From an uncultured Cytophagaceae bacterium (lineage in GTDB: Bacteria > Bacteroidota > Bacteroidia > Cytophagales > Spirosomataceae), in contig CAIUGL010000049.1 of the NCBI GenBank assembly GCA_903898715.1, forward strand, positions 1 to 63,584: a DNA stretch of 63,584 bases, in the 5' to 3' direction. A program made the translations under genes and the position numbers. Shown here piece after piece: positions 24,607 through 54,685 of the stretch (positions within the stretch are counted from its first letter, which is position 1; each line of letters begins with the position of its first letter). The notes beneath the pieces were generated by a model, which was given only the letters and a program-made list of their open reading frames with translations, did not search any database and had not been told where the DNA came from.

Positions 24607-24637
24607 TCACCTCATTCAGTCGCTGTTAAGCATTGAA

Positions 24638-24748
24638 TTATAAAGAAGAAGGGAGAGACTAGGCTCATTGATCTTCTGGCAACCCGTCAAAATTTTGACC
24701 CCGGTGCTAATTCCTACCCCAGGCAAATGCCTGTTTAGGGAAATATAA
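24638..24748 (+). ncRNA. SAM-I-clan riboswitch
   Basis: S-adenosylmethionine aptamer in the metX leader. Core elements of the SAM-I class are present in order: P2 strands GAAGA (24645-24649) and TCTTC (24672-24676), GGCAACC (24678-24684), P3 formed by GTCAAAATTTTGAC (24686-24699), the GGTGCTAATTCC core (24703-24714) and P4 CAGGCAAATGCCTG (24720-24733). P1 is short: TTATA (24638-24642) with TATAA (24744-24748). The P1 3' strand ends seven bases before the metX ATG and no terminator hairpin is visible, so ligand binding probably controls translation initiation. SAM-IV or the SAM-I/IV variant would share the same core, so the subclass is uncertain. Confidence 0.88.
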
Positions 24749-24755
24749 ATCGTTA

Positions 24756-52464: not shown

Positions 52465-52497
52465 AAAAAAGCCCCGACACACATCGGGGCTTTTTTT
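52465..52497. terminator. Bidirectional terminator, M1 peptidase / tyrA
   Basis: GCCCCGA (52471-52477) pairs with TCGGGGC (52484-52490), with six A before and seven T after, so it can end transcription in both directions between the two convergent genes. Confidence 0.9.
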
Positions 52498-53356
52498 ATT
52501 GCTTATTCAGGATTCGGCCAATATCATTGGCCTTACCCAGTTCATCTTTCAATTTGTCATAACTGCCGGAGAGCATCAAGCCTTTGTATTTCAATAAGGT
52601 ATTGATGTATTCATCTAGCACATCCATCAGGTTCTCTTGATTTTGATGAAAAATTTGACTCCACGTTTCAGGAGAAGATTTCGCCAAACGTACCGTCGAT
52701 TCAAAACCGGTCGAAGCTAATTCAAAAATACGCTCCTCATTTTTTTCTTTTTCCAATACCGTATTGGCTAACGCAAACGAACAAATATGCGATATATGTG
52801 AGATATAGGCCGTATGTACGTCATGGTCAATCGATTCCATGTAAATCAAGTTCATTCCCAATCCATCGCGGTATAAACTTTCAATGGTCTCAATAGCTTC
52901 GGGTGAACTTAATTCCTTATCGCAAATAACCCCACGTTTACCTACAAATAATCCATCCACCGCAGCTTCCGGTCCGGAAAATTCCGTTCCAGCCATCGGG
53001 TGGGTCGAAACAAATTGCGCACGTTTCGGGTGATTTTTTAGTGCTTCGTACACGGGTGTTTTGGTTGAGCCAACTTCAATCACGATTTGGCCCGGCTTTA
53101 ATTGATCCAAAACATTCGGAATGATTTGTACCAAAATATCTACCGGTGTTGCGCAAACAAAGATATCCACACGGTCAATGGCTTCGGATAAAGGTAAAAC
53201 TTCGTCAACTAACCGCAGGGAAAGCGCCTTGATTGCGTGGGCCGGATTAGCTTCAATTCCAATAAGTTCTGAAGCCCAACCAGATGCGCGCAAGCCTTTC
53301 GCGATGGATCCACCTATTAACCCAATTCCGATAATACCTACTTTCTTAGATTCCAT
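52496..53356 (-). CDS. tyrA: Prephenate dehydrogenase
   Basis: A 286-residue TyrA that converts prephenate to 4-hydroxyphenylpyruvate in tyrosine synthesis. The N-terminal Rossmann motif is VGIIGIGLIGGSIAKGL, and the conserved HPMAGTEFSG holds the catalytic histidine region. The C-terminal helical dimerisation domain follows (YISHISHICSFALA). No ACT domain is present. The start overlaps the upstream aminotransferase gene by 11 bases, and both lie behind the Tyr-rich leader peptide. Confidence 0.93.
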   Translation of the reverse strand: MESKKVGIIGIGLIGGSIAKGLRASGWASELIGIEANPAHAIKALSLRLVDEVLPLSEAIDRVDIFVCATPVDILVQIIPNVLDQLKPGQIVIEVGSTKTPVYEALKNHPKRAQFVSTHPMAGTEFSGPEAAVDGLFVGKRGVICDKELSSPEAIETIESLYRDGLGMNLIYMESIDHDVHTAYISHISHICSFALANTVLEKEKNEERIFELASTGFESTVRLAKSSPETWSQIFHQNQENLMDVLDEYINTLLKYKGLMLSGSYDKLKDELGKANDIGRILNKQ

Positions 53357-54521
53357 TGCTCTGCGTTTTAATGCGATCTATCGCCGTTTGAAAAACCTCT
53401 TCTTTGGCACATAACGAAATCCGCACATACCCGTTGCCCTGTGTGCCAAAAATCCCCCCAGGGGTGATAAACACCGCATTTTCATCCAATACCTGGTCGG
53501 ATAGTGCATAGCCAGATTCAACGGAAGCTGGCACGCGAGCCCAAACAAACATACCAGTTTGTGCGGAATCATATACGCAATCCAAAAGATCCATTAATTC
53601 AAATACCTTCTTTTGACGTGACAAGTATATTTCATTTTGACGCGCAAACCAGTGAGCATCTGCAGATAAAGCCTTTACCGCGGCTTCTTGTAAAGGTAAA
53701 AACATACCAGAGTCCATGTTGGACTTGAATTTCAACACCGGCCCCAATAACTCCGCTCGACCGAAAGCCGCACCGATGCGCCAACCGGCCATGTTGTGGG
53801 ATTTGGAAAGTGAGTTTAATTCAATGGCTACGTCTTTCATGCCGGGAACGGCCAACATGCTAACGGGATTGTCATTCAAGATAAAACTGTACGGATTATC
53901 ATTGACCAATAATATGGAATGGCGAATTGCGAAATCGCGCAGTTTAGTAAAAAATGCGATATCTGCTTTGGCACCCGTGGGCATGTGCGGATAGTTTACC
54001 CACATAATTTTTACTTTCGATAAATCTTGTTGGCCCAACGCATCTAAATCAGGTAGCCAACCATTCGCTTCCGTTAACTCGTATGCTTGAACCGTTGCCC
54101 CAGCCAGCGAACACGCTGCTTGGTAAGTTGGGTAGCCCGGATTCGGAATCAAGGTCACATCTCCTGCCTCTAAATAGGCCATGGCGATGTGCATGATGCC
54201 TTCTTTGGAGCCGATTAATGGCAATATTTCAGCAGCTGGATCGACTGTCACACCGTAATGCTTGGCATAGAACGCGGCAAAAGCCTCGCGTAAAGCTGGA
54301 ATTCCTTGATACCCCTGATAGGCGTGGTTGGCAGGATTAGCTGCGGACGCAGTCAATGCCTCGATTGTCTCCGTAGCAGGAGCGAGGTCTGGACTGCCTA
54401 TACCTAGGTTAATGACCGGAATACCGGCAGCGCGTAATGCAGCGATTTGCTTGAGTTTCGTGGAGAAATAGTATTCCTCTACGGACTGTAAACGCGAAGC
54501 GGGTGAAATAGAAAAGCTCAT
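53346..54521 (-). CDS. Class I/II aminotransferase of the tyrosine operon
   Basis: A PLP-dependent aminotransferase of 391 residues, fold type I. Landmarks are INLGIGSPDLAP, the substrate-loop IPNPGYPTYQAACSLAGA, NYPHMPTGAKAD, the PLP lysine in ELNSLSKSHNMAGWRIG (near residue 239) and the closing YVRISLC. The subgroup resembles LL-diaminopimelate/aspartate-type enzymes, but coupling to tyrA and the Tyr-rich leader argue for transamination of 4-hydroxyphenylpyruvate (inference). The ATG at 54521 was chosen; upstream in-frame ATGs would run through the attenuator terminator. Confidence 0.88.
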   Translation of the reverse strand: MSFSISPASRLQSVEEYYFSTKLKQIAALRAAGIPVINLGIGSPDLAPATETIEALTASAANPANHAYQGYQGIPALREAFAAFYAKHYGVTVDPAAEILPLIGSKEGIMHIAMAYLEAGDVTLIPNPGYPTYQAACSLAGATVQAYELTEANGWLPDLDALGQQDLSKVKIMWVNYPHMPTGAKADIAFFTKLRDFAIRHSILLVNDNPYSFILNDNPVSMLAVPGMKDVAIELNSLSKSHNMAGWRIGAAFGRAELLGPVLKFKSNMDSGMFLPLQEAAVKALSADAHWFARQNEIYLSRQKKVFELMDLLDCVYDSAQTGMFVWARVPASVESGYALSDQVLDENAVFITPGGIFGTQGNGYVRISLCAKEEVFQTAIDRIKTQSNGI

Positions 54522-54550
54522 AAAATAAAAATGCCGACTCACAGGCCGGC
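54522..54550 (-). terminator. Attenuator terminator before the aminotransferase
   Basis: On the minus strand GCCGGC, a six-base loop CTGTGA and GTCGGC (one G-T pair) are followed by ATTTTTATTTT, ending at the ATG of the aminotransferase. It lies 35 bases after the stop of the Tyr-rich leader peptide. Confidence 0.75.
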
Positions 54551-54585
54551 GAAAATAAGTTAACATCAAAAACCTATCAAACCGG

Positions 54586-54651
54586 TTACGCGCAGACGTA
54601 GTATCCTGCGTAATAATAACCTGCGTAATAAGTAGTTGATTTGAAATCCAT
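54586..54651 (-). CDS. Tyrosine-rich leader peptide (attenuator)
   Basis: A 21-residue ORF, ATG to TAA, with seven tyrosines at residues 8, 9, 12, 13, 14, 17 and 18 (runs YY, YYY, YY) plus one Phe. It precedes a terminator hairpin and the aminotransferase-tyrA genes of tyrosine synthesis. This is the arrangement expected for ribosome-mediated attenuation: shortage of charged tRNA-Tyr would stall the ribosome in the Tyr codons and change RNA folding. Two CGCAGG segments in the leader can pair with CCTGTG in the terminator loop region. An exact promoter lies four bases upstream of the ATG. Confidence 0.82.
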   Translation of the reverse strand: MDFKSTTYYAGYYYAGYYVCA

Positions 54652-54655
54652 GTCT

Positions 54656-54685
54656 CAAAGGTAGGAAAAAAATGATTTTATGCAA
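54656..54685 (-). promoter_or_regulatory. Promoter of the tyrosine operon
   Basis: On the minus strand TTG (54683-54685), a 19-base spacer and TACCTTTG (54656-54663) match the Bacteroidota consensus exactly. Only four bases separate the box from the leader-peptide ATG, so the mRNA is close to leaderless. Confidence 0.75.

Follow-up and report, generated by a model that had tools for sequence, protein, structure and literature searches.

A candidate tyrosine-specific leader-peptide attenuator before an aminotransferase-tyrA unit in Spirosomataceae and its Phe/Tyr relatives in Bacteroidota

Does a short open reading frame crowded with tyrosine codons control the transcription of genes for tyrosine synthesis in a Bacteroidota bacterium? 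The question is raised by a locus on contig CAIUGL010000049.1 of an uncultured Cytophagaceae bacterium (assembly GCA_903898715.1; Spirosomataceae in GTDB), whose 63,584 nt were analysed as one stretch, called the window below. The attenuators of enterobacteria combine a leader ORF with many codons for the regulated amino acid, RNA segments that fold as S1:S2, S2:S3 or S3:S4, and a terminator before the operon. The enterobacterial trp, his and phe attenuators have this layout of leader ORF, three folds (of which S1:S2 is here a prediction) and terminator in common with the element described here, which differs in its amino acid, tyrosine, in its predicted leaderless start and in its Bacteroidota promoter. 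As judged from sequence comparison, the element very probably attenuates transcription by way of a translating ribosome that senses tyrosine specifically, as the initial annotation had proposed, because close relatives conserve the Tyr-dense ORF, the terminator and a competing antiterminator.

Read along the minus strand, the locus begins with the promoter TTG-N19-TACCTTTG (positions 54656-54685; TTG at 54685-54683, TACCTTTG at 54663-54656), which has the boxes of a Bacteroidota sigma-A promoter and is separated by 4 nt from a leader ORF of 21 codons encoding MDFKSTTYYAGYYYAGYYVCA (54586-54651; ATG at 54651, TAA at 54588-54586). The seven tyrosines of this peptide stand in the three runs YY, YYY and YY. 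The ORF is followed by an intrinsic terminator (S3:S4; 54522-54550) made up of the hairpin GCCGGC-ctgtga-GTCGGC (54550-54533) and the T-rich tail ATTTTTATTTT (54532-54522), which ends at the ATG (54521) of a class I/II aminotransferase gene (53346-54521); close relatives use the same ATG. The gene tyrA (52496-53356, minus strand) overlaps the end of the aminotransferase gene, and the hairpin scan placed a terminator-like hairpin, readable on both strands, behind it (52465-52496). Promoter, Tyr-rich ORF, hairpin and gene pair were all recovered as the initial annotation had described them. Pfam assigns the first protein to the class I/II aminotransferases, and the second lies above the NCBIfam cut-off for prephenate dehydrogenase. 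The aminotransferase, which stays below all NCBIfam cut-offs shown, is probably an aromatic one, judging from its gene context. The start proposed by the ORF finder for this gene is TTG 54569, from where the frame reads through the terminator (54569-54522, minus strand); annotation derived from ORF-finder calls starting there would hide the putative attenuator. Elsewhere in the window, a SAM riboswitch was detected at 24635-24751 on the plus strand with 67.7 bits.

The Tyr-rich ORF is far from what chance would produce: when the 135-nt leader was shuffled 5000 times with its dinucleotides preserved, not one shuffle contained an ATG ORF with seven tyrosines in no more than 30 codons. For the comparison with relatives, an ORF was called Tyr-dense if it started with ATG and had at least four tyrosines in nine codons, and the best 80 of 592 confirmed loci were kept. 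The aminotransferase was matched in 118 of 150 family genomes, 49 of which were read besides the window's own (29 + 20 loci); these 49 comprise every match above 60% identity except G088, which was later matched by a covariance model (L230), and nine others. Among the aminotransferase-first units nearest to the window's (62.5% identity or more, a line set after the data had been seen), a Tyr-dense short ORF is present in 46 of 46 distinct upstream regions, against 0.17 expected from shuffles; identical upstream regions and loci with less than 330 nt upstream are left out of this count. The leader-bearing loci come from Cytophagales such as Aquirufa, Flectobacillus, Arcicella, Pseudarcicella and Siphonobacter (among the best 80 of 592 loci) and from genomes of the same genus and family. 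Lack of conservation in close relatives, which had been named as grounds for giving up the attenuator reading, is therefore not what was found. Among aminotransferase-first loci of lower identity, 16 of 17 have no Tyr leader; the exception is a Lentimicrobium locus (L066). Once identical ORFs are dropped, 41 distinct leader ORFs (L066 included) contain 248 Tyr codons, 130 of them TAT and 118 TAC, and 20 Phe codons. Each close relative has four to eight in-frame Tyr codons, and in 38 of the 41 leaders the last tyrosine is followed by one to four residues.

Where transcription starts can be predicted from the promoter. The sigma-A -7 box TAnnTTTG of Flavobacterium psychrophilum has been placed at -12 to -5 (PMC9723704). 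Since TTTG and the ATG of the window's leader are 4 nt apart, this placing predicts a transcript whose first base is 54651, which is the A of the leader's own start codon, so that the mRNA of the leader peptide is predicted to be leaderless. The near-leaderless mRNA suggested earlier is likewise predicted for relatives, as the gap between -7 box and ATG is 4 nt in 22 and 5 nt in 6 of the 41 distinct leaders (28/41 at 4-5 nt); it is 10 nt in five and 18 to 24 nt in six others, and in the remaining two no box was detected nearby. In F. psychrophilum, leaderless mRNAs made up only 5.5% of those mapped (PMC9723704). A leaderless start is not general for the attenuators of the window's genome, because a Trp leader, MTKAAYNKNWWQG, which is located 94 nt before a 469-residue ORF at a locus with a trpE-type domain, has a box gap of 18 nt. 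Trp leader peptides (MTKAAYNKNWWQG; MTKATYNKNWWQG; MNKTTHNNNWWQG) were seen at four of the seven trpE-type loci looked at (L244:746 on contig C82 of the window's genome, G000; L245; L246; L248), 35-97 nt before a long ORF, and the -7 box of these Trp leaders lies 17-18 nt before the ATG. A leader peptide whose transcript starts with the ATG of its ORF has been described for Sinorhizobium meliloti trpL (PMC7298713); as far as described there, it resembles the start predicted here and differs in serving tryptophan and in belonging to the Alphaproteobacteria.

The terminator hairpin would carry little weight as a pattern: five terminator-like sites were counted in the 4.1-kb region and 4.5 were expected. 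Its weight rests on its conserved place in relatives, because the pattern alone does not exceed chance. All 33 chosen leaders have six or seven of seven S3:S4 pairs followed by a T-rich tail, and over 22 distinct composites 92.9% of cells are paired, with 13 changed on both sides against a shuffled mean of 2.5. RNAalifold, applied to 14 leaders of the window's group with no structure given, returned the terminator S3:S4 alone, and 0 of 6 terminator pairs in this group are changed on both sides. In the window, the T tract is broken by an A and is weaker than that of most relatives; the stem ends 11 nt before the gene's ATG, at which the tail ends. This interrupted T tract and the closeness to the ATG would suit a different mechanism, in which the hairpin masks the aminotransferase start and the leader ribosome controls translation rather than termination. 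Such translation attenuation is nevertheless improbable, since the hairpin and T run of Flectobacillus and Arcicella stand 34-95 nt upstream of the gene. More generally, outside the genus a distance of 19-95 nt separates the terminator from the gene, so that the hairpin is not merely a start-codon mask.

Attenuation further calls for a structure that competes with the terminator. Segment S2 (54573-54589, minus strand), which abuts the leader stop codon and extends just past it, is the 5' half of the candidate antiterminator and is kept in the sister group; it is complementary to S3 (CTTATTTTCGCCGG; 54546-54559, minus strand), the 3' half, which covers the terminator's 5' arm together with the bases that precede it. 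From 16 leaders, mostly of Flectobacillus and Arcicella (the sister group), RNAalifold returned this S2:S3 helix with no structure given, with 11 pairs, five of which have at least one change on both sides; from the 14 leaders of the window's own group it returned no antiterminator. In the window itself, S2 and S3 form only five contiguous pairs and a second short helix, with a duplex energy of -11.8 kcal/mol. A test for six contiguous S2:S3 pairs was passed by 19 of 30 elements (6.4 expected), the window being among the 11 that failed; L108 and L112, which have no stem of six contiguous pairs, had been dropped from this test. Over the 22 composites, 85.7% of S2:S3 cells are paired and 10 are changed on both sides (shuffled mean 4.3), a score that leans towards structure because the S2 register was chosen to pair. 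Three elements show a joint change of a core triplet in S2, S3 and S4, namely C-G-C to A-T-A in L016, T-A-T to C-G-C in L017 and G-C-G to A-T-A in L114. The alignment of orthologous upstream regions proposed with the original observation thus yields conserved Tyr codons and covarying terminator and antiterminator stems. An antiterminator that excludes the terminator and shows compensatory changes is predicted for the sister group and the 22 composites and is weaker in the window.

The antiterminator first suggested was a different one, namely the pairing of either of two CGCAGG segments (54625-54620 and 54610-54605) with CCTGTG (54545-54540). These segments are complementary in their letters; the pairing, however, is not conserved, and the conserved antiterminator found in the sister group is S2 with S3. 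All 14 aligned rows keep one GCAGG, which belongs to codons for Tyr-Ala-Gly, and the partner CCTGTG is kept in only two of them, the window and L084; it also occurs in L001, which lies outside that alignment. S1 (54616-54640, minus strand), a segment inside the leader ORF, is the predicted partner of S2 in untranslated RNA, and S1:S2 pairing was predicted in 46 of 46 loci with mean pairing probabilities of 0.65-0.94, calculated without a shuffle control. The first Tyr codon of the Flectobacillus/Arcicella leaders is located within a stretch able to pair with S2; there, 3 of 16 rows have ACACATACCG and most of the others a variant of it, so part of the peptide around the first tyrosine may be conserved because this stretch can pair with S2.

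Conservation of the ORF could also mean that the leader encodes a small Tyr-rich protein acting in trans and that the terminator is an ordinary one. Leader peptides of this kind exist, as peTrpL shows (PMC7298713), but the sequence of the peptide outside its tyrosines varies, as does its length (15-21 residues), TAT and TAC are used about equally, and the pairing of the downstream RNA is conserved. A trans-acting product is accordingly very unlikely. Least credible of all is a riboswitch, T-box or protein-bound leader, with a metabolite or tRNA sensed directly by the RNA, that overlaps a Tyr-rich ORF by chance. A structured leader before a biosynthesis unit would be in keeping with such a sensor, yet an aptamer needs no four to eight in-frame Tyr codons in every close relative, and the leader gave no T-box or riboswitch match in Rfam, at the gathering threshold for the window or in a relaxed search of nine loci. 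In Rfam 15 as a whole, it matched no family at gathering in the window, and the relaxed search of nine loci gave sub-threshold matches to Phe_leader only; neither the T-box model nor that of Bacteroid-trp (RF01692) matched in either search. The best match to Phe_leader (RF01859) reached 41.5 bits in L021 (cut-off 55), and the leader of L081 had none even at an E-value of 1. These sub-cut-off matches lie on Phe/Tyr leaders in L021 (41.5 bits) and L073 (33 bits) and elsewhere in L080 and L081.

The established trp/phe model suggests how a ribosome would attenuate transcription here and how tyrosine would set the outcome. RNA polymerase would start at or within 1 nt of the leader AUG, and a ribosome would load on the leaderless end. 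With ample Tyr-tRNA, this ribosome would reach the stop codon and cover S2, S3:S4 would form, and transcription would end before the aminotransferase gene. With scarce Tyr-tRNA, it would stall in the Tyr run over S1, which would free S2 to pair with S3 and allow aminotransferase and tyrA to be transcribed. If the leader were not translated at all, S2 would be tied up in S1:S2, which would leave the terminator to form by default. The enzymes would probably be made only when tyrosine is short.

The element seems to have a single target. A covariance model built from 14 leaders of the genus, some of them from the genomes searched, gave a single strong match in each of 30 of the 31 genus genomes, and six extra matches were weak (24 to 28 bits). 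In all 22 compared of these 30, the strong match adjoins the aminotransferase gene. A model of the neighbouring group matched in 27 of 150 family genomes, in all 27 next to the aminotransferase gene, and missed the window's genome and most of its genus, whose leaders differ. Since the model matches adjoin the aminotransferase gene, the element has one target as far as seen.

Is the leader an isolated case? In units in which pheA precedes aminotransferase and tyrA, 50 of 51 loci have an ORF with at least six Phe or Tyr in ten codons (0.6 expected), and in a second pheA-led sample 25 of 28 loci do so at the lower threshold of five. The second sample was drawn from the 32 of 158 phylum genomes with a close enough aminotransferase, 29 loci of which were read; the pheA-led loci of the two samples are L018-L080 and L184-L212. 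Together, 79 loci have 106 Phe/Tyr ORFs before pheA-led units, near-duplicates included, of which 89 have a terminator no more than 150 nt behind them. A seven-base S2:S3 match is present in 34 of these 89 (4.7 expected), and 37 of the 89 also contain Trp. Tandem units of ORF and terminator were found in 19 of 79 loci under strict thresholds; two Phe/Tyr ORFs before one pheA operon occur in L018-L050, which include Chitinophaga, Hymenobacter, Saprospiraceae and others, and in L184 and L190. Phe accounts for 59% of the Phe and Tyr codons before pheA-led units, where leaders are mixed, in contrast to the nearly pure Tyr leaders of units with tyrA only. The window's leader appears to be the Tyr-only extreme of a family of Phe/Tyr leaders that occurs in many Bacteroidota. 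In this lineage the leader has almost no Phe codons, which appears to match a unit that consists of aminotransferase and tyrA alone.

The pheA gene of the window's genus is a fusion with chorismate mutase and is located elsewhere. Of 19 genus genomes, 12 have a prephenate dehydratase, which at the loci read is fused to chorismate mutase; none was found in the window's genome (G000) or in G144, assemblies that are 86-88% complete. Among 13 pheA and 16 DAHP synthase loci of the genus, no conserved Phe/Tyr leader was seen, only scattered ORFs at single loci, and the fused chorismate mutase-pheA genes of five other Spirosomataceae genomes showed none upstream. One Sphingobacterium (L176, L074) has a Phe/Tyr leader before its separate pheA and none before its aminotransferase-tyrA; a Phe/Tyr leader is likewise present in L179 and absent from L181. 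A tree of 105 aminotransferases, from which manually picked near-duplicates and loci showing too little context were excluded, has the Tyr-rich leader at two places, the Spirosomataceae branch and the Lentimicrobium locus L066, whose tree neighbour L069 (support 90) is a pheA-first unit with a Phe/Tyr leader. Three changes of leader type are counted, because L016 (4 Tyr, 2 Phe), which lies inside the Spirosomataceae branch, was coded as mixed. The two independent switches are suggestive of leader codons tracking operon content and are not significant (sign test, p 0.5), the independent switches being too few. In the same tree, the leader-bearing Spirosomataceae genes (L001-L017) stand near genes of Saprospiraceae, and those of other genera of the family (L124-L132), which have no leader, are placed elsewhere; gene replacement or transfer is a possible source of this grouping.

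Bacteroidetes were reportedly named by Vitreschak and colleagues (2004) among the groups with candidate attenuators. Attenuation in this phylum is not new, having been reported before in PMC2864571 and PMC9723704. The Bacteroid-trp RNA (RF01692) was presented as a candidate cis-regulator in Bacteroidota (PMC2864571) and has been likened to a Trp leader (PMC6414381); it shares the phylum with the window's leader and differs in serving tryptophan. For F. psychrophilum, 'strong clues' for leader-peptide attenuation of amino acid operons were described, together with a structured 5' element before pheA that is conserved in other Flavobacteriaceae and is without Rfam matches (PMC9723704). This element is probably a Phe/Tyr relative of the window's leader; the parts of the paper covered do not mention its codon content, a Tyr-only form or a leaderless leader. 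In Acholeplasma, the motif uORFC-13-1 before aroF contains a uORF with Phe before a terminator, and the same paper refers to an earlier proposal that E. coli aroF is controlled by attenuation (PMC8632094). Like the window's leader it precedes a gene of the aromatic pathway; unlike it, it belongs to another phylum and contains Phe, with no Tyr run mentioned in the text covered. Tandem attenuators have been described in Salmonella mgtCBR (PMC3641672). In open-licence PubMed Central, as far as covered by titles, abstracts and selected passages, neither a tyrosine-specific leader nor a link between codon content and operon content nor tandem Phe/Tyr leaders were found. The initial remark that no tyrosine leader of this kind was known to have been described holds within this literature, but the leader does not stand alone, given its Phe/Tyr relatives across Bacteroidota.

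If the reading is true, the window's leader would to our knowledge be the first tyrosine-specific ribosome-mediated attenuator and would supply the member for tyrosine that the series of amino acid attenuators has lacked. It would also provide a natural experiment, in which the leader is tuned to Phe and Tyr or to Tyr alone by the presence of pheA in the operon. A broader view is evenly balanced between right and wrong: one old family of leader-peptide attenuators may serve aromatic synthesis in Bacteroidota, its codon content being rewritten as operons split or fuse, with Phe and Tyr before pheA-aminotransferase-tyrA and Tyr alone before aminotransferase-tyrA, in tandem in Chitinophaga, Hymenobacter and Saprospiraceae, and leaderless in the Spirosomataceae branch, where the ribosome would load on the nascent 5' end. 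A practical use lies in annotation, as such leaders would predict the amino acid to which aromatic genes respond. Ribosome-mediated attenuation requires that the leading ribosome follows closely behind RNA polymerase. Since leaders stand before most of the sampled pheA operons, coupling therefore becomes testable in Bacteroidota, for one member of which, F. psychrophilum, Shine-Dalgarno sequences are described as absent (PMC9723704). If the view of one family with leaderless members is true, tight coupling of transcription and translation would be implied in Bacteroidota.
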